Shown piece after piece: positions 17,653 to 43,249 of a stretch of 64,000 nt of DNA (the stretch's first letter is position 1; every line of letters starts with the position of its first letter). The notes beneath the pieces were generated by a model. It was given only the letters and a program-made list of their open reading frames with translations. It did not search any database and was not told the origin of the DNA. The stretch is from Candidatus Saccharimonadota bacterium (GTDB lineage: Bacteria > Patescibacteriota > Saccharimonadia > Saccharimonadales > Saccharimonadaceae), in the NCBI GenBank assembly GCA_946893605.1, contig OX335598.1, forward strand, positions 248,001-312,000, written 5' to 3'. Made by a program: the position numbers and the translations under genes.

Positions 17653-17874
17653 TTAACAAATGTGATTTCCGAGTATTCGAGATCGCATAAATACGATTAT
17701 TATTGTGATAATGGCAGTAATTATACAAGTTAACAGCAGAGCCTTAGGCTTCTTACTAATTTTTTCTTTCTTAAGGATGAATATTGATGTAATTAGAGTC
17801 ACCGTTCCCAAGATGTATGGCAAGTATCGTGCCAGTACTATTGAAGTATTTAATAATATTGTAGTTAAGCTCAT
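17653..17874 (-). CDS. small two-helix membrane protein
   Basis: A 73-residue protein of two hydrophobic helices (about 12-34 and 46-64) joined by a Lys-rich turn, KKEKISKKPK. An excellent AAAGGAGG seven bases before the ATG supports it as a real gene. It fills most of the otherwise empty space between dnaX and the DUF2797 gene. Two-helix proteins with a basic loop include VirB2/TrbC-like pilins and T7-holin-like proteins, but nothing here is diagnostic and no secretion signal cleavage site is clear. Function unknown. Confidence 0.55.
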   Translation of the reverse strand: MSLTTILLNTSIVLARYLPYILGTVTLITSIFILKKEKISKKPKALLLTCIITAIITIIIVFMRSRILGNHIC

Positions 17875-17972
17875 TAGTAGCCTCCTTTACTGTGAAAGTT
17901 TGATTTATATATATCAGTAATAGAGTGAAATTTCAAGCTATTTCATCAAAAGTATATCGTAAAAATAAGGTC

Positions 17973-18848
17973 TTAAAATAACGTTAATTGCTCGGTTGGT
18001 AAATCCAGCTCAATTTCTCCGTTGGCTTTTTGCGCCCGATAACCAATAAGCTTTTTGATGTTGTAAGCCAGCAGCTGACCGCCGTAATCAGTGATGACAA
18101 TTGAGCCGATGATGCTGCGTACACGCCCGACCAATTGACTACAATCCTTCATTAAAACGACACGTGACAAATCAACACCAGTAGTTTGAAAATAATCTTC
18201 GCAAGGAATTAGCTCGGATTTCGGAAACGACACGCCAATTTTTTGCTCAATTTCAAGTAATTTTTGTCGCAATTCCCTTTCGCCGGCTGCATGGTCAAAA
18301 GGTTGTTTTATTAATTCCAGCTTTTTGTGCGCTGGCAGAGTTTCAACTATTCCGTCCAGCTTGGAAATTTTCGCCTCGTATTGCCTGGCGATCAATGCCG
18401 AAGAAAATGTTTCTAATTTTACGGCTAATCGCGCTCCTTGCTCCAATAATCTCCGAATTCCGCGTTCTTCTTGCGAGATTCCAACTTTTATGACGCTCGG
18501 CGCGAAGTATGCCAAGTAAACAAAGTGCGGATTTTGATTGATTTTTTCTTGTTGGGTGGAAACCGAACTGGCGTTATAAAATGCTGGATTAAAGCCAGTT
18601 TTGTCGCGGCATTTTAAGCAATTCTCATACTTTTCATCAACCGTGGCGTGGTCTGGGCAGATTTGGCTACAGCGATTCTCAAAATCCACCCAACCCGTGC
18701 AATATTTGACAGAAAAATCAAACTTAAGAGATAAATCTTGCCCGAACAATTCATGACGCTCAATTTTATCGCCAACTTGACATTCGACGAATGGCTTATT
18801 GTCAGCGTTAAAACTGGCGTAACTGAGCAAAAATTCGCTCGGTAGCAT
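17973..18848 (-). CDS. DUF2797-family protein
   Basis: A 291-residue protein of the DUF2797 family, which has no proven function. Eight cysteines near the N-terminus (CTGWVDFENRCSQICPDH and ENCLKC, about 49-84) suggest a zinc site. A GIY-YIG-like core follows: HFVYLAYFAPSVIKVGISQEERGIRRL (about 108-133, motif VYLAYF...IKVG). The start ATG at 18848-18846 is preferred over an earlier one at 18884 because it has AAGGAAA upstream and avoids overlap with the preceding gene. The two genes lie eight bases apart and probably form an operon. Confidence 0.75.
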   Translation of the reverse strand: MLPSEFLLSYASFNADNKPFVECQVGDKIERHELFGQDLSLKFDFSVKYCTGWVDFENRCSQICPDHATVDEKYENCLKCRDKTGFNPAFYNASSVSTQQEKINQNPHFVYLAYFAPSVIKVGISQEERGIRRLLEQGARLAVKLETFSSALIARQYEAKISKLDGIVETLPAHKKLELIKQPFDHAAGERELRQKLLEIEQKIGVSFPKSELIPCEDYFQTTGVDLSRVVLMKDCSQLVGRVRSIIGSIVITDYGGQLLAYNIKKLIGYRAQKANGEIELDLPTEQLTLF

Positions 18849-18856
18849 AAATTTCC

Positions 18857-19372
18857 TTACAGTGCGGCTTCGACTGCAGCCCAAGTTGCGTCAGGATTGT
18901 CTTCAGGGATGATGATTGTAACTTGGTCGCCGACGTTAATTCGGAAGTAAGTTACGCTAGCAAGCAAAATACGATATTCGCGGCCAGAAGCCTCGACGTA
19001 GTAAATTCCGTCGTGCTGGACAAGTGTTCCGATAATCTGCTTTCGCGGCACAGGACCGATTTGCTTATAAATAAAGCTGCCGTCTTCAGCGATTGTCAAT
19101 TTCATCAAGTCGCCCTCAACCAGCTTCGACTTTGAAGCGTAGTTAGCTGGGATTGGGTAATTTTTACCATCCGGGCTGAGCATCATTTGTCCGTCAAATA
19201 CGCCTTCGATAATCTTTCCTGCTACGTTATCTGACGAAGTTTTTGGCGTAACAACTTGACCGTCGTCGCCAATAATACTAATCAATAATTCTTTTGCGGC
19301 AGCTAAATTGGTCTCCGCCTCTTGAATAAGTGTCCTCAGACGCTTAATTTGCTTTTCTGGTAATTCAGACAT
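18857..19372 (-). CDS. conserved hypothetical protein with coiled coil
   Basis: A 171-residue soluble protein that I cannot name. Residues 1-35 form a short coiled coil (LPEKQIKRLRTLIQEAETNL). The remainder is beta-rich, with two similar half-repeats: one around KLVEGDLMKLTIAEDGSF (about 84-101) and one around INVGDQVTIIIPEDNPDA (about 144-161). These resemble small OB-like or SH3-like barrels. No signal peptide or membrane helix is present. It is the first gene of a two-gene unit with the DUF2797 protein. Confidence 0.65.
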   Translation of the reverse strand: MSELPEKQIKRLRTLIQEAETNLAAAKELLISIIGDDGQVVTPKTSSDNVAGKIIEGVFDGQMMLSPDGKNYPIPANYASKSKLVEGDLMKLTIAEDGSFIYKQIGPVPRKQIIGTLVQHDGIYYVEASGREYRILLASVTYFRINVGDQVTIIIPEDNPDATWAAVEAAL

Positions 19373-32893: not shown

Positions 32894-33112
32894 TTAGCTT
32901 TTACGAGCTTTAACTTCGTTACGACCAAGGTTTTTCTTAGTCTCGGTGTAAGTAGCGTGTTGCTTTGCAATTGGGTCGTACTTACGTAGTGTCAATTTAC
33001 CCTGACCTTTTGTGGTGCGGTTCTGGGTGTTAACAGTAGTATAGTAAGTTCGGTGGTTGCTCAAGTTACTCACCAAACCAATCAGCTTTCGTTTCGTATT
33101 CTTCTTTGCCAT
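32894..33112 (-). CDS. rpmG: 50S ribosomal protein L33
   Basis: A 72-residue L33. The conserved core is RKLIGLVSNLSNHRTYYTT (about 8-26) and LTLRKYDPIAKQHATYTETK (about 40-59). It lacks the CxxC zinc pairs, so it is the Cys-free form. It is longer than the usual 50-55 residues through a basic C-terminal tail (NLGRNEVKARKS). Single gene with its own terminator. Confidence 0.93.
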   Translation of the reverse strand: MAKKNTKRKLIGLVSNLSNHRTYYTTVNTQNRTTKGQGKLTLRKYDPIAKQHATYTETKKNLGRNEVKARKS

Positions 33113-33370
33113 CTCTTTACTCGTTAGATTTTATAAAACGTCTTGGCTAATTATAGCATGGGTGAAGTGAAAATGCTAGTACCATATCAGATTTTACTAA
33201 TTTTTATGCTTACTTCGCCAATCAATAAAGCGCGTCGGACTTTTATGGGTGTAGATATTTTCATTTCAGCGAACTTAAGTATTTTAAGCTAATGGCCGAT
33301 GCTTCGTAAAAAAATGAATCTCATGATATTATGTGTAATAGAGATATTTATAATTTGTGGGGGTTCTGGC
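33113..33370. other. intergenic region before the decayed DNA-modification island
   Basis: A/T-rich, with the rpmG promoter side at the left. I find no second copy of the tRNA-Thr 3' end and no clear repeat that would mark an integration border. A short frame from 33299 runs into the methyltransferase start but adds nothing recognisable. Confidence 0.4.
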
Positions 33371-36040
33371 GTGGCTAAATATACCTTTGATCAGGTTAAA
33401 CGTAACGTAGCTGAAATTGCTAATCGCGATTCATATACTAAAGAATTTATTTTTGAGTTAATGGCGGCTTACGGTCGCGCAACTTCGGCAATTAATCAGT
33501 TGAAGTCTGGTGCTATCGATAACCTGATAGACCCTAATGCTCTTCTTCAAAAAGGTGTATTGTATTTCAAGGTATTCCCTCAAGGAACTCCGCTCGAAGA
33601 AAAAGTAGGAAAATGGGATCCGAATCTCTCTTTCGTCGCTATGAGCCACGCTATATTGTTGCCACCGATCTTCACCATATTGTTGCAAAAGATACTATAA
33701 AACACACCACTTTAGATATTGAAATAAAAGACATTGATAACGAAGTGGCTTTTTACGGATGGACTGGCAATGAAATTAACAAAGGTAGCGCTGATGAATC
33801 GGTTGCTGATCGACGTGCGGCCGACAAGATGAAAGATCTCTACGACGAAATCGAGCGTGAAAACATCGATAGTTTTAAGGCCGACCCTGTCGGATTTCGT
33901 CATAACCAGAAAGCGTATTTTTAGTCGCCTTCTTTTTTGTTTCTTTGCTGAAGATACGGGACTCTTCAGACCAAAGCAACTTACAAACTCCATTAAAGTA
34001 CACCGAGACTGACGGATCAAATCTTGATCTATTTTTTAATGAGCTGTTCAGATCCCTAGATTCTGAAGATAAAAGCGGAATGACGACTCCGTATTCAATT
34101 TCCATATGTGAATGGTTCTCTATTTGACACAAAAAAGAACATAATATTGCTATACCAAAATTCTCACCAACAGCACGCCATATTCTGATTCTATGTGCTG
34201 ATTTGGACTGGAGTGGTGTTAACCCTGATATTTTCGGTACGATTTTTCAGGGTATTGTAGATGAGACTCGACGTGACGAAAATGGTATGGACTATACGAG
34301 TGTCCCGAATATATTAAAAGTTATCAACCCATTATTTATGGATGAATTACACGAGGAATTCGACAAGGCTTTTGATGACCAAAATAGATTATTCAAGTTG
34401 TGGGGTAGAATTTCTAAGATTAAAGTGTTCGACCCCGCCTGTGGAAGCGGTAATTTTTAATTATTTCATATAAAAAGCTGCGTGAACTGGAGCATGATAT
34501 TATTCGTCGCATTGCTGAATTAAAGCATGGGGTTCTGAGTGTTAAGCTAAATTCACAAATTAAATTAGATCATTTCTTCGGCATTGAGATAGAGGATTTC
34601 CCGCGTGAGCTGGCTGTTTTATCAATGTATATTGCCGCCCATCAAATGAACGTAGAATTTGAAAAAAGAATTCGGAAAGAAGATTTCAATTATTCCTTTG
34701 ATTGATATGCCTACAATTTATTGTGATAACTCAGCTCGGGTTGACTGGAATTCTATATGCCCAAATAATGGATCAGATGAAATCTATGTCATCGGTAATC
34801 TGTTAAGAAGGTAGCCGTAGCCAGACAGTGAGCTAAAGAAGGATATGGATCTCAACCTATCTAGCGTAGATGGCTATAGATATCTAGACTACATAGGCTA
34901 TATGGTTCGAAAAACTTAGTAAATATATTGCGGCGGAACATCTGCAAAGGGCGCCTTCGTTTTTACTAATTTATTTGTCAAGGAGACTAGGTTGATTTTC
35001 TGGCCACAATTCGAACGAGGGGATCCAATTTGCCTATACGTCATTCAGGTGGACTAATAACGCCCAGATGTTGTCGGCGTAATGGTTTCTGCATCATATC
35101 TCTTTTGTAATGAATCTAGATAAAAACACACCACTCTACACGATAATATATAGTAATGTCAATAAAATTAACGCATATCTATCCGACGGTAGCGATGGTG
35201 TCGTATTAAAGCGTAGAGATAATCTTTGTGGTTTTCCGGATATGGTAAGGAAGCACTTGCGCGATGGCAACCATCTGTCTTTAACGCAGGAAGATCGCGA
35301 CGAGCTGCTACGCCAATCACCAGAAGCTAAGAGGTTTATAAAGAACTACTCTGGTTCAAGAGAATACATAAACGGTATTAAAAGATACTGCTTATGGATT
35401 GACGACAAATATCATCTTGAAGCTGAAAAAGTTCCATTTATTAAACAACGTGTAGATGAAGTTAGAAAATTTAGATTGTCCGAGAAGAATGCAGCTACGC
35501 GTGCGATGGCATCAAAGCCATGGTCGTTCTTCCGCAAATCATACAAGCCAACTAATGCCATTATAGTGCAGTTGTTTCTTCTGAGCAGGCAGTATATTCC
35601 GTTAGGATTCGTCGATGAAAATATGTTATATCGTATGCCGCATTTTTGCAGTATATGACGCTGGCTCATATCTATTTGCATTGTTAAATTCTAAGATGCA
35701 TATGGCCTGGATTCGTACGGTGTACGGAAAACTTAAAACAGATTATCGCTATTCATCAACGTTGGGTTATACTTACTTTCCGTGTCCGCCACTTACACCT
35801 CAACAGAAAGAAAAAATGAACCAATCTGCAAGAAATATTCTATTTGCGAGGAGCTAATCATCAGAATTAACGCTGGCCATTATGTATGATCAAACAAAAT
35901 GCCGAAGATCTGCGTCAAAGACTCACGAGAAAAATGATATATTAGTTGACAAGCTTTATCGCTCGACTCCGTTCCAAACAGATGAGCAAAGGGTTAGCTA
36001 CGCTATTCAAACTATATGAGAAATGACAGGACGTGAGTAG
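33371..36040 (+). pseudogene. decayed class I DNA methyltransferase (MmeI/type IIG-like)
   Basis: Pieces in all three frames line up in order with a large N6-adenine methyltransferase. GTG 33371 opens AKYTFDQVKRNVAEI; then CFFAEDTGLF (about 33950), an N-terminal helical part, the SAM motif FDPACGSGNF (34428-34460), HFFGIEIEDFPRELA, and a target-recognition/C-terminal part (35110-35860) with RRDNLCGFPDMVRKHLRDG, YINGIKRYCLWI and TYFPCPPLTPQQKE. It ends near TAG 36038. Motif IV, NPPY, expected after YVIGN near 34800, is destroyed by a short replacement. More than ten frame changes and several stops show it is inactive as read. Such proteins methylate DNA and some also cut it; the helicase and GIY-YIG genes follow. 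Confidence 0.8.
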
Positions 36041-36056
36041 TTTATTCATATTTGTA

Positions 36057-36085
36057 TTGACTTTGTTTATATTCTGCGCTAAAAT
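36057..36085 (+). promoter_or_regulatory. promoter of the helicase/GIY-YIG pair
   Basis: TTGACT (36057-36062), 17 bases, TAAAAT (36080-36085), then AAAGGA and ATG at 36112. It is well preserved although the genes behind it are broken. Confidence 0.65.
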
Positions 36086-36111
36086 GTTCATAATTGAAAG
36101 GAAATATTTAC

Positions 36112-38327
36112 ATGGAAGATAATATTACAAATATGAATAAGACTTCCGTCGAGATTGATGATAAGATCGTTTTTAAACTCCAAGAAAAGCCCATCGTTGA
36201 TATTAACGACATTAAGCGTTGGACTGGCTATACAGACCGCGGTGCATATAATATCGTTGAGAAACTTTTGGCACTCAATATTCTTCTTCCCTACGGAGAC
36301 GATAACTATGGAAAACGATACATATATAAAGATTACCAGACTGAATTAGATTCCGATTCTGGAAAAACCAGCCCCGATACGATTAATATAGTGAATGTCG
36401 CCTATAATACTACCGGAAAAAGCACTAAGGTAGATGAGCTTGGTATGCGCGAGATGCAGAAGCGTGCATATAATAAGCGTACTAGCGCGAAATTACTGAT
36501 TAAAGCGCCACCCGCTTCTGGCAAATCTCGTGCATTGATGTTTATTACACTAGACAAACTCCATAATCAAGGAATTAAAAAAGCTATCATTGCTGTTCCG
36601 GAGCGTTCAATTGGTGCTTCGTTTTCCGACACAGATTTAACAGCTTCGCTTTTATGAAAGGTGGCATATTGATGATCGTAATAATCTTTGCACTGATGAT
36701 GGATTAGACGATGAAAGTAAAGTCGGTGCATTTTTGAGATTTATGGATGGCGACGATGAAATCCTTCTCTGTACTCATGCAACCCTTCGTTTTGCATTGA
36801 AGAATTGCCACCTAGCAAGTTTCAAGATTGTCTGCTAGCAATTGATGAATTCCATCACGCCTCTATATCTGAAAATAGTCGCCTTGGCCAACTTCTTCAA
36901 GATGTGATGCGCAATTCAAATGCTCATATTATAGCGATGACTGGCTCATACTTCCGTGGCGATGCCGTGCCAATTCTTACTCTGAAGACGAAGAAGAATT
37001 CGATAAAGTTACATATACTATTATGAGCAGTTAAATGGCTACACATATTTAAAGCTTTAGGTATATCGGCTACCATTTCTATACCGGTAGCTATCTATAT
37101 AGAGGCGCACTCGATGCTGTACTTGATATGAAGACAATTATTCACATTCCGAATGTCAATTCGAAAGAATCTACACAGAAAGGCAAGCTCGAAGAAGTCC
37201 AAAATATCTATGATATTATTGGCCGCTGGGATCACAAAGACGAGAATAACGTCGACTATATTGAAGCTCCAGATGGCAGAATGCTTAAAGTAGCCAACTT
37301 AGTTGAAAGACGAGCCAGAATACCGCAAGAAATTGGTAAATTACCTAACAAATGTAGCTCGCAATGATATTGCTGGTATTGATATTATTATTGCATTAGG
37401 TATGGCAAGGGTTTTGACTGGCCATATTGCGAGCATGCACTAACTGTAGGATATCGCTCTTCCCTAACTGAGATAGTTCAGATTATTGGTCGCTGTACTC
37501 GTGATAGCTACAATAAGAGACACGCTCAGTTTACAAACCTAATTGTTCAACCAAATGGTACTAATGATGATATCGTAATTGCGGTAAATAGTATGCTTAA
37601 GGCTATTACTGTCTCTCTTCTTATGGAACAGGTGCTAGCTCCAACATTCACATTTACGCCTAAGTCGCGCGAGACTCGTCCATCTAAACCAGGCGAGATT
37701 ACGATTAAAGATCTTTACCACCAAAGACTCCAAAGGTTAAGCAAATTATCGCAAGCGACCTAGAGAAGATCTTACCGCGGCTGTACTGCAGATTCGCGAG
37801 TCGAGAAGGCTGCTACTGAAATATCACTAGCCCTTATATGAAGCATCTCCAGAGTGAAATTATTCGTGAAAAAAATCCTGGACTAACTGATGAAGAAACT
37901 GAAGTTGTAAGGCAATACCTTGCTGCTAATATTGCCACTAAGGTGGCTGAGCCAATCAAAGATGGTGAAGGTAATATTAAGTTCCCTGAAGATTGCTAAT
38001 CGCTTTGTAAGATCGATGACCTTGATATAAACCTCATTGATTCTATTAATCCATTTCATCACGCTTTTGAAGTTATTTCGAAAAAGTGAAACGTCATTGA
38101 AGTATTCAGGATACTATTGCTGGTAGTAGGATTGATATGCGCGTAGAGGATGCGCTTGCAATGGTTCCTCAAATAAAAGCATTCGTAGTTGCACAACGGT
38201 GGGTATCAATCGCTACGCTCTAATGATAGCAATGAAAAAAATTCTTGCGCAGGCGCAGAAATACGACCGCACAGAGAGCCAAATATGAGCGAGAAAAAGC
38301 TCGCAGAGTAGCGAAGGTGCGTTGTAA
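36112..38327 (+). pseudogene. decayed DEAD/DEAH-type helicase
   Basis: An ATP-dependent superfamily 2 helicase in several frames. The first 180 codons are open, with a winged-helix-like start (DINDIKRWTGYTDRGAYNIV) and Walker A KAPPASGKSRAL (36505-36540). Further on come CTHATLRFAL, the DEAH-like box LLAIDEFHHAS (36833-36865), motif III IIAMTGSYFRGD, the C-terminal helicase domain with IIIALGMAR, and motif VI EIVQIIGRCTRDSY (37465-37510). Frame breaks occur about every 200-300 bases. The last codons overlap the GIY-YIG start in TAATG, so the genes were coupled. Start ATG 36112 has AAAGGA upstream. Confidence 0.8.
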
Positions 38328-39481
38328 TGGACTACTATGATAAGTTGGCCGGATTATTTGAGGGACCAGACTCAGATCTATTTAAGCCAGTTCCAAAGAA
38401 ACATGCAATCACCGAAGATGAATGTTTAGTTAGTTCGTTTGAGCAGATAAATGAGTTTGTGCGCAAAAACAATCGTACACCTAATGAACAGGCTAATGAT
38501 ATCAGTGAGGCTATGCTCGGCCATATGCTTAATGTGATAAAAGTAGACAAAAAGAAAGTCGAAGCATTAGCTGAGTATGATGAGTTTGGATTGTTTGAAT
38601 CTGAAAAGGCGCCAGAATCACTAGAAGAACTATTTGCTGAAGATAGTGATTTATTCAAGGTTTCTGGTGATATTTGATATCCAGAAGCTACCTAGGCAAG
38701 GAGTAGTCGATAAAAAAATACCGGGAAACAGCAAGTCGCAAGCTTGTTGAAGACTTTTCTATGTATAGATCCCTGTTTAAAGAAAAACAGGATGGTCTTT
38801 TCTTCTGGTAAATATAAGTTAATGAAATTCATAAGACAAGAGGAAGTCGTCGAAGGTGGCTACTATATTTCTGGCGGTCAAATGTGTTATGTGGAAAGTA
38901 TTGGCGAAGAGAAGCTAACCTTTGGTCGCATGAAAGCGCGCCTTCGTGTTATTTTCGAAAATGGAACAGAATCAAATATCTATCTTCGTACCCTTTCAAG
39001 CCAACTTTACAACGATGACGGTTATATTGTCGTTAATGCTAGCGATGAAAGAGCTATTGACGATAAAGAGATTGTTGGTCATATTTATGTCCTCAAATCG
39101 AAGAGTGAAGACATGCGTATTCAAGAAATTGCCAATCTCTACAAAATTGGAATGACCGAGGATACCGTAGAAAATCGTATTGTTAATGCTAAAAAAGACC
39201 CCACTTACCTTATGGCGCCAGTTGAAATTGTTGACACTTATAAAGTAACCGGGAGACTATAAAGCCAGAAAGTTGAAGCCCTCATCCATCGGTTTTTTGC
39301 TGATGCAAAAGTTACTCTGACTGTGATTGATAAAGACAGTAAAGAATACTCTCCGAACGAATGGTATTCTGTGCCGATTGGAGTAATACGCGAAGCAATA
39401 GATTTATTAAATACGGGTGATATTATTAATTTTGTTTATGATAGCGAAAAACAAAAGATCGTAGAGATTGAGCAGGACTGA
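38327..39481 (+). pseudogene. decayed GIY-YIG (T5orf172-type) nuclease-domain protein
   Basis: Starts MDYYDKLAGLFEGPDSDLF (116 codons open), then crosses at least three frames. The C-terminal part has the T5orf172/Mug113-type GIY-YIG core: HIYVLKSKSEDMRIQEIANL followed by YKIGMT (39080-39155), AKKDPTYLMAPVEIV, and after a break KVEALIHRFFADA and NEWYSVPIGVI. It ends at TGA 39479-39481, about 385 codons in all. The Y...YKIG tyrosines and the Arg of VENRI are present. Family members often accompany restriction or helicase genes in defence islands. The breaks are not all at homopolymers. Confidence 0.75.
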
Positions 39482-39565
39482 TAGTATATTATAGTTACAA
39501 TTATTGTAGCGAAGTGATAGAAAAAAAGAAAAACAGTTAAATTTATAAACTTAATGAAATCGGAA

Positions 39566-39604: not shown

Positions 39605-39680
39605 TGGAGCCACGATCGGGGCTTGAACCCGAGACCTCATCCTTACCATGGATGCGCTCTACCAACTGAGCTATCGCGGC
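39605..39680 (-). tRNA. tRNA-Thr (anticodon GGT)
   Basis: Acceptor GCCGCGA/TCGTGGC, D-arm GCTCAGTTGGTAGAGC, anticodon arm CATCC-ATGGTAA-GGATG, T-arm TCGGG-TTCAAGC-CCCGA, discriminator T and encoded CCA; 76 bases. Its 3' end faces the decayed DNA-modification island, a common arrangement for integrated DNA. Confidence 0.95.
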
Positions 39681-40021: not shown

Positions 40022-40122
40022 ATGATAGCATATAAATTATCAAAAGTCAATGGTGCTCAGCCTGGCGTCTTGCGACCAATTATATAAAAATATCCACGTA
40101 AGAAAAATATTATTTTCCGGCC

Positions 40123-40416
40123 TTATAATTTATCAATTAACTCGAGTAGCTTTTCCCATGATGCTCTGTCGGTGTGGTCATTATCAACGGTAACAGCGTA
40201 TACGCAAACTTTATACAGGAGAGGATATTCTTGTGAATTAATCCAAGTCTGCATCTCCAAAGGATACGCTAACTGGTCAGAAACTCCAATAGCCGCACCA
40301 TAATCAGTAGTCAATAAGTCAAGCCCATCATGTCTAATTTGATCTGCCCAATATTTGCAGTGCTCGACTGCTTGTTCGTAAGTCATTTGAGGGTATTGGT
40401 TGCTGCTATTATTCAT
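40123..40416 (-). CDS. small orphan protein, paralog of the gene at 41493
   Basis: A 97-residue acidic protein starting MNNSSNQYPQMTYEQAV. It is clearly a duplicate of the gene at 41493: both share QYPQMTY.QAV, DQIR.DGLDLLTTD.GAA and end SWEKLLELIDKL. The start ATG 40416 is chosen over 40425 because the latter overlaps the TATAAT box (which ends seven bases before 40416) and because it matches the paralog. No known domain, signal or membrane segment. Part of a run of five small minus-strand genes. Confidence 0.65.
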   Translation of the reverse strand: MNNSSNQYPQMTYEQAVEHCKYWADQIRHDGLDLLTTDYGAAIGVSDQLAYPLEMQTWINSQEYPLLYKVCVYAVTVDNDHTDRASWEKLLELIDKL

Positions 40417-40436
40417 ATTTATCATTATAATGACTT

Positions 40437-40769
40437 TTATTGATTTGTTTTACGCGTCTCAATCTCGTCAGCAATCGCAAATAGTGCCTGCCAGTCCTTT
40501 GGTTTATCGACACCTTTGTCTAGACTGCTCAATATAGACAACATCTCATCCAGAGCGGGATCTAACTCGACTGTCGCATCTTGTAACATCAAACTAAGTA
40601 ATTCATCGACGATACGTTCAGATTTAGTTTGCGGATAGCGTGCGTTAGGCTGGTTATAATCTCCTCGCTTACACAATTCCGCGATATCCATAGCACGCGC
40701 AGCTTGGATTAACGCCAATACTTTAGCAGTATTACCATTTTGGACTGTACTATCTGGCACTTTCTGCAT
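40437..40769 (-). CDS. small acidic orphan protein
   Basis: A 110-residue soluble, helical protein of unknown function. Notable stretches are AKVLALIQAARAMDIAELC (about 15-33) and the acidic LDPALDEMLSILSSLDKG. It lies between the duplicated gene at 40123 and the gene at 40793 with short gaps. TTATAAT lies about 15 bases before the ATG. No similarity to its neighbours is apparent. Confidence 0.55.
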   Translation of the reverse strand: MQKVPDSTVQNGNTAKVLALIQAARAMDIAELCKRGDYNQPNARYPQTKSERIVDELLSLMLQDATVELDPALDEMLSILSSLDKGVDKPKDWQALFAIADEIETRKTNQ

Positions 40770-40792
40770 AATTCTATCTCATATTATAACAT

Positions 40793-41101
40793 CTATGGGT
40801 GAGTCAGTTTTTCGTTTCGCTTATGAGTCACGAACTTTTGGCAAGAATTTCTGGATAGATCGTCATACTGATTAAGTAACTTGACATCAAGTGGTACTGG
40901 GCTGTTGTTATTTAAAGAATAATACCTCTGGTCACATACACTAGCGAGATCATCCCACGACACGACAGACGAGTCTTCAAGACCACGCGCCAACGAGAAC
41001 GCAAAGCTATCAAGATATTCAAGGACATCTGAATTGTCGGCATTTTCACGAATCATTTGAATCATATCACGTGCTAGAATTGCCTGTTCACTCTGTTTCA
41101 T
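40793..41101 (-). CDS. small orphan protein, related to the gene at 47198
   Basis: A 102-residue helical protein. It shares a pattern with the gene at 47198: an N-terminal AILARDMIQMIRENAD-like helix, LDSFAFSLARGLED and the short motif SWDDLAS (WDDLAS in both). TACAAT ends six bases before the ATG and no Shine-Dalgarno is present. It differs from the paralog in its basic C-terminus (THKRNEKLTHP). Function unknown. Confidence 0.6.
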   Translation of the reverse strand: MKQSEQAILARDMIQMIRENADNSDVLEYLDSFAFSLARGLEDSSVVSWDDLASVCDQRYYSLNNNSPVPLDVKLLNQYDDLSRNSCQKFVTHKRNEKLTHP

Positions 41102-41113
41102 AATCTCATTGTA

Positions 41114-41377
41114 TCAATTAATCTGGCTTAACTTTTCCTTAATCTCGTGTACGATATTGGCAGCATACTCCGTGTCTTCGGTCGTTTCAAGTTCAGCGCC
41201 TAATTCGGCAATTTCGTCGAGTAGTGGATAATTATCCTGGAACACGTCTTCCCAATCATCGCGCGCAAGTGTTGCACCTACAATATAACTACCTAGACAG
41301 TCGAGTGGCTCATTCTTATTGTTTTGCAGTATATGCTTGATTTTATCTATTACAATCTGCTTTCTGTCGTCATACAT
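41114..41377 (-). CDS. small acidic orphan protein
   Basis: An 87-residue helical, acidic protein, with LGSYIVGATLARDDWEDVF in the middle and EIAELGAELETTEDTEY near the end. TATGAT ends six bases before the ATG. The DDWEDVF motif recalls the WDDLAS of the neighbouring family, but the match is too short to claim homology. Function unknown. Confidence 0.55.
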   Translation of the reverse strand: MYDDRKQIVIDKIKHILQNNKNEPLDCLGSYIVGATLARDDWEDVFQDNYPLLDEIAELGAELETTEDTEYAANIVHEIKEKLSQIN

Positions 41378-41492
41378 AAAACTATCATAACATGAGAAGT
41401 ACCTCCCCCGACCTGAAGGGGGGCAATTCGCATCCTTTCTACACTAGCGGTTGGGTCGCCACTCCGAGAACAAATTTTCTGGTTTTCCGGCT

Positions 41493-41786
41493 CTATAATT
41501 TATCAATTAGCTCGAGTAACTTTTCCCACGATACCCTGTCGGTGTGGTCGTGGTCGACAACGCCAGCATAGTATCGTATTGCATAAATATCTGGATATCT
41601 TGGGGCTGAGATCCATTCCTGCATATCTAGTGGATAAACTAACTGGTCAGAAACTCCGACAGCCGCACCCCAGTCGGTAGTTAACAAATCAAGTCCATCG
41701 GCTCGAATCTGATCTACTTGTTGCAGAAGACACTTGACTGCTTGTTTGTAGGTCATTTGAGGGTATTGGCTCTTCTTATTATTCAT
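41493..41786 (-). CDS. small orphan protein, paralog of the gene at 40123
   Basis: A 97-residue duplicate of the gene at 40123, most similar at the two ends; the last 12 residues (SWEKLLELIDKL) and the DNA around the stop codon are nearly identical. The middle has diverged (ISAPRYPDIYAIRYYAG versus INSQEYPLLYKVCVYAV). TATAAT ends seven bases before the ATG. The pair frames the other small genes, as if the cluster grew by tandem duplication. Confidence 0.65.
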   Translation of the reverse strand: MNNKKSQYPQMTYKQAVKCLLQQVDQIRADGLDLLTTDWGAAVGVSDQLVYPLDMQEWISAPRYPDIYAIRYYAGVVDHDHTDRVSWEKLLELIDKL

Positions 41787-41805
41787 ATTTGTTATTATAT
41801 AACAT

Positions 41806-41848
41806 GAAAAAGTCCCAGGCTAATAATAATATAATATTAGCCTGGGAC
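41806..41848 (-). terminator. terminator of the coiled-coil gene
   Basis: GTCCCAGGCTAAT (41848-41836) pairs with ATTAGCCTGGGAC (about 41824-41812), followed by TTTTTCATG on the minus strand. The inverted repeat is nearly perfect. Confidence 0.75.
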
Positions 41849-41923
41849 GGTCTCCTTTCTATTTATCGAGCATCTTCAGGTGGATTATGTCTGTCAGGGT
41901 GACCGTATGGAAGCTCTGGTTTG

Positions 41924-42964
41924 TCAGTGATGGTCTTTGTCAGATTCTCCGTCGGTGTCCCACGAGATGCGGTAGTTATCTCCGTAGTACTGCGTCACAT
42001 GCGGATCTACCTGGCGATTCCTATCGTAGAACACTCCACCGCGATCATTGATGTCGTTGTCGCGGTTTCGTACACCGAGTGGTGGCGCATCTCTCCGGGC
42101 GCGGCGGTCATACAGTGTTCCACCAGGCTCATCGGTGAAGTTCTGCGCACCATGCGGTGCGAACGGATCGCGTCTGTATGTTACGGTTCCGTTTTGGCTC
42201 ATAACATAGTGTCCGTGACCAGGACCATCAGGTTTATCAACACCACCGAAGTAGATGTTGACGTTGCCGTTCGGTTCCATCGAGATCCATACGTCGTCCT
42301 GGTACTGAAGCGGAACTCCAGCCTTTGCGGCCAACTCCTTACGCTTCTTTCGGCTTGCCGACTTCAGTTCATCGAGCCTGGAGCGGAAAGCCTTGGTGCA
42401 TGCTTCAAAGTCGGCCTTGGCGCGCTTGAACTCAGCCTCCGCTAGTTCGTGCTCTGCCCTGGCAGAATGAAATGTCTGCTGCGCACGAGCAAACTCATCC
42501 TTAGCCGACCAGAAGGCTGGCTTGACGGCATCGAACCGCTCACGTGCGGCGCGAATTTCAGAGACAAGCTGTCGCCGTTCGGCGGCAAAGGTCTGAGACC
42601 TTTCCTTGAAAGAATGTCCCTGATTTGCATACATACGCGCGCTAGCGTCATCACGCATGTCGTGGGCTAATGAAGCCGACTCGAAAGCCGACTTCATTTC
42701 CTTATATGCTTGCTCTTGCCGAGCATTCAAGCTGTCGATTCGTGGGCCGTTGGTTAGCTTTATGGACATGTAAGCTTCCCATGCGGCTTGCTGGTCTGCA
42801 TAGGCGGCTTGCTTGGCTTCCCAGGCACGGTTCATGACTGCACGAGCCGAGGAGCGGCGCTCCCAGGCGGCTTGCTGAGCTTCCCAGGCTGCCTGCTGCT
42901 GTTTGCGGGCAGACTCGCGAACCACCTTCAAACGGTCAAGCTCAGCGTCTCGCTGACGAGACAT
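41924..42964 (-). CDS. GC-rich coiled-coil protein with Trp/Ala repeats
   Basis: A 346-residue protein of unknown function. Residues 1-220 are a long, charged alpha-helical region. It starts with a tandem AAWEAxx-type repeat (QQAAWEAQQAAWERR, RAWEAKQAAYADQQAAWEAY; about 20-65) and continues as a heptad coiled coil. The C-terminal 120 residues are different: a beta-rich segment with YVMSQNGTVTYRRDPFAPHG and GGTLYDRR, then a Gly/Asp/Arg/Tyr-rich tail. ATG 42964 is chosen (GAGAGGAT upstream) over 42997. The gene is much richer in GC than its neighbours and has its own leader hairpin and terminator. No secretion signal is visible. Confidence 0.65.
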   Translation of the reverse strand: MSRQRDAELDRLKVVRESARKQQQAAWEAQQAAWERRSSARAVMNRAWEAKQAAYADQQAAWEAYMSIKLTNGPRIDSLNARQEQAYKEMKSAFESASLAHDMRDDASARMYANQGHSFKERSQTFAAERRQLVSEIRAARERFDAVKPAFWSAKDEFARAQQTFHSARAEHELAEAEFKRAKADFEACTKAFRSRLDELKSASRKKRKELAAKAGVPLQYQDDVWISMEPNGNVNIYFGGVDKPDGPGHGHYVMSQNGTVTYRRDPFAPHGAQNFTDEPGGTLYDRRARRDAPPLGVRNRDNDINDRGGVFYDRNRQVDPHVTQYYGDNYRISWDTDGESDKDHH

Positions 42965-42986
42965 GATAATATCCTCTCTGTAAAGG

Positions 42987-43018
42987 AGCGAAGTCACAGC
43001 GATTACTGCAACTTCGCT
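42987..43018 (-). promoter_or_regulatory. leader hairpin of the coiled-coil gene
   Basis: AGCGAAGT (42987-42994) pairs exactly with ACTTCGCT (43011-43018) across a 16-base loop, 23 bases upstream of the start codon. It resembles the leader hairpins of the two other GC-rich genes in position, not in sequence. Confidence 0.4.
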
Positions 43019-43224
43019 ATTTTACAACATGAAGAGGGTTTTGGCAATAGTCTATTTAATACAACAAGGACCCAGTAGATTAACAGATATATTATTTCTA
43101 TTGAGCATTTAAGGTATGACGAATGCTTACCATCTTTTGAAATAGCCCTTCTGAAGACTTGCGTGATAGCGGTGGCGCGATGCCTTATCGCGGAAGATTA
43201 ATTTATAAAGAGTCTGTTAGTATT

Positions 43225-43249
43225 ATAAAAAGTCGCCCGAAAAGGCGAC
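43225..43249 (-). terminator. terminator of the tRNA-Thr/tRNA-Tyr pair
   Basis: GTCGCC-ttttcg-GGCGAC followed by TTTTTATAA on the minus strand, 14 bases past the tRNA-Tyr CCA. Confidence 0.85.

Follow-up and report, generated by a model that had tools for sequence, protein, structure and literature searches.

The window analysed here, 64,000 bp of contig OX335598.1 of a Candidatus Saccharimonadota bacterium, a small parasite, carries at positions 33371-39481 an island of three genes, which we regard with fair confidence as a horizontally acquired DnmA-YeeB-YeeC operon, i.e. an MmeI-derived, ATP-dependent restriction-modification system, with reading frames that were most likely broken by errors of the assembly consensus. 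The gene content and order, the conservation of the operon, the loss of the nuclease motif from the methyltransferase, the catalytic residues of the helicase and of the GIY-YIG protein and the absence of the island from the related genome G133 are directly supported. The genes are designated M (MmeI-type adenine methyltransferase), H (SF2 helicase) and G (T5orf172/GIY-YIG protein), and their order, strand and coordinates, as given in the preliminary description of this DNA, were all confirmed. The reading of the trio requires about 40 frame changes in total. The features of the island and of its surroundings, in positions of the window unless indicated otherwise, are as follows.

32894..33112, minus strand: left flank, small gene for a ribosomal protein, resembling L33 by eye and conserved in relatives
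33242..39511, no strand assigned: accessory segment with the trio, missing in G133 (blastn against G133)
33371..36037, plus strand: M, N6-adenine DNA methyltransferase of the MmeI/DnmA type, including a target-recognition domain; some 20 frame changes; GTG start at 33371 taken from the sequence
33634..33858, plus strand: MmeI_N piece of M (Pfam PF20464, 6.4e-10)
34362..34457, plus strand: MmeI_Mtase piece of M with methyltransferase motif I, DPACGSGNF (Pfam PF20473, 2.5e-8)
35188..35794, plus strand: target-recognition domain of M (MmeI_TRD), divided between two frames (Pfam PF20466, 5.2e-36 and 1.3e-20)
36057..36085, plus strand: sigma-70-like promoter match (TTGACT-17-TAAAAT), no more frequent than by chance
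36112..36375, plus strand: winged helix-turn-helix (wHTH) homologous to the Fic C-terminus and in frame with the start of the helicase (38-45% identity in blastp, with E-values of 3e-18 to 3e-12)
36376..38313, plus strand: H, core of a YeeB-type SF2 helicase; some 17 frame changes; 180/189 near-invariant residues kept
38327..39481, plus strand: G, YeeC-type T5orf172/GIY-YIG protein; 3-5 frame changes; 31/33 near-invariant residues kept
39077..39247, plus strand: T5orf172 (GIY-YIG) piece of G (Pfam PF10544, 8.6e-5)
39605..39680, minus strand: right flank, tRNA-Thr(GGT) (ARAGORN); conserved in relatives
Source contig G000:C1, 60461-60992, 82777-83023 and 88130-89167, lying outside the window: infC and infB broken, 5S rRNA gene with clustered indels; all intact in relatives

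The preliminary description had read three coupled genes through many frame changes, and this was borne out by Pfam searches and by frameshift-aware alignments alike. Separate short open reading frames gave Pfam matches to MmeI_N (6e-10), to the beginning of MmeI_Mtase (2.5e-8), to MmeI_TRD, here in two different frames (5e-36 and 1e-20), to DEAD (8e-4) and to T5orf172 (9e-5). The island could be aligned from end to end, hopping between frames, with intact homologues carried on Niallia, Lactobacillus, Klebsiella and Rhodococcus plasmids or encoded in two genomes of this family, at 33374-36037 for M, 36367-38313 for H and 38327-39475 for G. The match to intact trio genes is far beyond chance. 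These alignments placed about 20 frame changes in M, about 17 in H and 3-5 in G, and showed three in-frame stops at most. The remainder of the 64-kb window is occupied mostly by full-length open reading frames, and the immediate flanks of the island have no short indels relative to a close relative.

Intact operons of the same make-up proved to be very widespread. One scan of GTDB species returned at least 559 stretches encoding a helicase relative, in hosts from Bacteroidota to an archaeon, and the operon counts given here refer to the best 80 of them. G lies directly downstream of H in 79 of these 80 loci, the contig of the remaining one ending at that point, and M is present in 71; in each of the nine loci without M, the contig extends 2.4 kb or less upstream. 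The order and strand of the trio in the window are identical to those of the intact operons. The survey speaks for M-H-G as a fixed unit, with a separate motor and a separate nuclease in place of the MmeI nuclease and with the restriction step itself still putative. It also agrees with the earlier proposal of a restriction or anti-phage type system having its nuclease as a separate GIY-YIG protein, since intact three-gene versions do occur together elsewhere. In some plasmids, toxin-antitoxin or other genes are placed between M and H, and trio loci adjoin other defence genes, such as CBASS-type genes and mcrC in Nitrobacter. It should be added that in Lactobacillus amylovorus (L014:4450-5160) an extra gene between M and H matches the PADLOC candidate family PDC-S32 (4e-32). 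No PADLOC or NCBIfam model identified H or G of the Saccharibacteria trios, and a scan of viral contigs (viral_contigs) returned one helicase relative only.

Judged by gene content and order, the trio corresponds to the already described DnmA (YeeA)-YeeB-YeeC system of Bacillus subtilis, here present as a further copy. In B. subtilis the same three genes stand in the same order: DnmA, an m6A methyltransferase and MmeI homologue without the nuclease motif, precedes a helicase gene and the gene of a T5orf172/GIY-YIG protein, and a type I-like restriction-modification function has been suggested for them (PMC7261158, PMC9973331); m6A methylation by DnmA has been reported, and restriction was not detected in B. 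subtilis (PMC9973331). In our control search B. subtilis matched the MmeI_TRD family, and the link of the trio to DnmA-YeeB-YeeC rests on the intact relatives and on PMC9973331. The copy in the window differs from that of B. subtilis in its Saccharibacteria-like genome, in the many frame changes of its assembly and in a Fic-type wHTH preceding the helicase.

The methyltransferase of the intact trios was aligned to MmeI, a type IIL restriction-modification enzyme (PDB 5hr4), from residue 107 onwards, sharing with it the helical spacer, the methyltransferase, the target-recognition domain (TRD) and the C-terminal domain; M also fits the type IIG model of PADLOC along its whole length. In contrast to MmeI, the N-terminal D-ExK nuclease is missing, and any cutting would need H and G. 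At the aligned columns, E and K of the EQK nuclease motif were found in none of 74 trio M proteins and in 4/4 solitary MmeI-type proteins, a test made on intact relatives, the copy in the window having a frame break near the motif region, at about 33572. Aligned columns were used in place of a loose D-x-ExK pattern search, in which 14/68 M proteins matched by chance. A solitary type IIL enzyme was ruled out by the absent nuclease motif and the presence of the partner genes. Adenine methyltransferase domains related to that of M also occur in PglX of BREX and DrmMI of DISARM, whose PADLOC matches were only weaker domain matches, and a remnant of either system was rejected on this ground. Partner genes of BREX or DISARM are absent from the trio loci read.

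H and G retain the residues expected of a motor and a nuclease. SF2 motifs are legible in the window copy of H as Walker A (APPASGKS), a DEAH-like box (AIDEFHHAS) and motif VI (QIIGRCTRD), and away from the breaks it has lost 4 of 152 near-invariant residues (2.6%). Near-invariant GIY-YIG residues were identified across 79 G proteins (G253, Y256, K275-I-G277, R286 and E319), and in the window copy of G two of 33 near-invariant residues are changed, both conservatively. Pfam matches to T5orf172 and MUG113 support the placement of G in the GIY-YIG superfamily. The model of an intact G, of good local quality (pLDDT 87.6), gave in Foldseek only partial matches to SH3-like folds of the EF-P/eIF5A type, none below E 0.001, and no GIY-YIG structure; sequence searches of the PDB returned nothing with H and a chance match only with G.

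On these grounds we propose that the system would operate as a type I-like enzyme split over three genes. M, without the nuclease carried by its solitary MmeI relatives, would recognise a short asymmetric site and methylate an adenine in host DNA; on unmethylated DNA it would recruit H, which would move along the DNA or remodel it with ATP, and G, guided by M, would then cut. Complex formation, translocation and cleavage by G are the steps that we infer. In outline such an enzyme would be similar to type I HsdRMS, in which a modification and specificity unit is likewise combined with an ATP-dependent motor and a nuclease. The two are not homologous as systems: in the trio, specificity and methylation are joined in one MmeI-derived chain, the motor and the nuclease are encoded by separate genes, and the nuclease is of the GIY-YIG type.

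The trio might instead be an epigenetic regulator, as proposed for B. subtilis DnmA, in which case M would be an orphan methyltransferase, and its partners H and G would serve another role or be relics. We hold this to be improbable, in spite of the observations in B. subtilis that deletion of dnmA alters the expression of some genes and that deletion of yeeB or yeeC left phage sensitivity unchanged (PMC9973331). In Vibrio crassostreae, on the other hand, deletion mutants of the homologues showed increased phage sensitivity (PMC9973331); moreover, the association of H and G with M extends across phyla, and the neighbouring genes are other defence genes, as in the Nitrobacter locus.

The condition of the present copy requires a separate consideration, the trio frames not being open in the assembly. 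Errors of the consensus are quite probably the main cause of the broken frames. The lesions in the trio are nearly all small indels (about 40 indels to 3 stops), and the genes are near full length, with neither large deletions nor insertion elements. In spontaneous mutation, substitutions outnumber indels roughly 10 to 1. Simulated decay with 10 substitutions per indel fitted the observed stops and residue loss in 0/300 runs, and a fit was obtained with about one substitution per indel or fewer. Furthermore, 21 of the 121 orthologues with 90% or more identity to their G133 counterparts are split over frames in the source contig, among them infB, uvrA, a Mur ligase and a penicillin-binding protein (PBP). 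infC is broken as well, being open in 8/8 relatives, and the 5S rRNA gene, which contains an indel cluster, scores 52.6 bits in the source contig against 84.8 bits in G133; infB, infC, uvrA, the Mur ligase and the 5S rRNA are intact in a 95%-identical relative. Since a cell is not expected to live with these genes broken, the source contig contains consensus errors, and calls of gene decay made from it are unsafe.

The density of the indels deserves a comment, amounting in the island to about one per 150 bp, or some 30 times the contig average of one per 5 kb. Dense indels between clean flanks count against consensus error, and a real dead island would look alike. A second cluster was however found at 106-110 kb of the contig, where short indels reach 13 per kb and mismatches are not in excess, so that dense local clusters are a property of the assembly. 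It should also be added that the segment at this second cluster (G000:C1 105495-110145), where the indels were scored relative to G133, holds RCC1-repeat genes, and G133 contig ends near it map in opposite orientations, which possibly reflects an invertible segment.

A genuine pseudogene cluster, in which an acquired operon lost its value, accumulated frameshifts and died, is in our opinion unlikely. It would explain why some 40 frame changes are restricted to an accessory segment whose flanks are clean, and the B. subtilis copy has been described as a functional relic (PMC9973331). It would also account for the state of M, which has lost 21 of 136 near-invariant residues, and for the NPPY motif. 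The loss of this motif had been put forward as a sign of decay, and the motif is indeed unreadable in frame, P514 and P515 being read as L and L, but frame breaks adjoin it. Decay is opposed by the near absence of in-frame stops, by gene lengths close to full without large deletions or insertion elements, by the retention of nearly all conserved residues in H and G, and by the false-looking breaks in essential genes and 5S rRNA of the same contig. The earlier statement that the system is probably dead here was therefore not sustained, its lesions being almost purely small indels with equivalents in infC, infB, uvrA and 5S rRNA.

In a mixed case, which seems less probable still than outright decay, most indels would be errors, M would be truly damaged or very divergent, and H and G would persist as an intact remnant without modification. 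M does have the largest number of breaks, and its loss of near-invariant residues away from breaks reaches 14%, compared with 2.6% in H and two conservative changes in 33 positions in G. Nevertheless, M is generally more variable than H, and intact M proteins lose up to 14% too, the window copy being equal to the most divergent intact M. Besides, an active nuclease without its methyltransferase should harm the host, if it is able to act alone.

As to the winged-helix start that had been assigned to the helicase, a wHTH is present in frame with H at 36112-36375, but it corresponds to a Fic C-terminal domain and not to a normal part of the helicase: residues 5-83 of the frame opened at 36112 match the C-terminal wHTH of Fic proteins with 38-45% identity (blastp). 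In other Saccharibacteria, the matched Fic genes adjoin restriction genes of type I or type III, as identified by eye. A Fic-type wHTH joined to a helicase was seen in no other helicase examined or matched, and with an indel every 150 bp in this stretch the wHTH and the helicase could be two genes. A true fusion, in which a module of a restriction-associated Fic protein would have been joined to the motor of an intact and active DnmA-YeeB-YeeC system under its own promoter, is improbable; if real, it would place the motor, or the expression of the motor, under a control distinct from that of the methyltransferase. The promoter described as intact at 36057 does exist as a site (TTGACT-17-TAAAAT), but such sites occur at chance frequency, 26 having been found in the sequence versus 24.0 +/- 5.0 expected after shuffling.

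The island occupies a variable site between conserved flanks. In blastn, G133 is collinear with the window at about 96% identity up to 33241 and again, at 93%, from 39522, with a short partial match from about 39511. Between the ribosomal-protein gene and tRNA-Thr, G133 holds a different segment of about 1.3-1.4 kb, and remnants of the trio, sought there, were not found; more distant relatives have other sequence between the same flanks. The gene of G133 at the island site (L067/L068, joined stretch 17740-18860) is ADP-ribosylglycohydrolase-like by eye.

The helicase is present in only 3 of 295 genomes of the family, with two further carriers in other families of the order. In a quick tree of 84 helicases, in which the row of the window was assembled from frame pieces, the window copy grouped with that of G035 (support 100) and the helicase of the intact trio of G132 (L018) with Actinomycetota (support 100). 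Because of these separate placements, at least two entries of the trio into Saccharibacteria are probable, one of them near an actinobacterial clade, and the position of the G132 copy suggests a transfer from or to an actinobacterium. Actinobacteria are the known hosts of cultured Saccharibacteria.

A second stretch missing in G133 lies at 40057-43227 of the window and encodes two similar small proteins (40123-40425 and 41493-41786; QYPQMTY..QAV...DGLDLLTTD.GAA.GVSDQL). Outside the window, at 605900-611100 of the source contig (G000:C1), a type III Mod methyltransferase and a Fic core are likewise shattered over frames.
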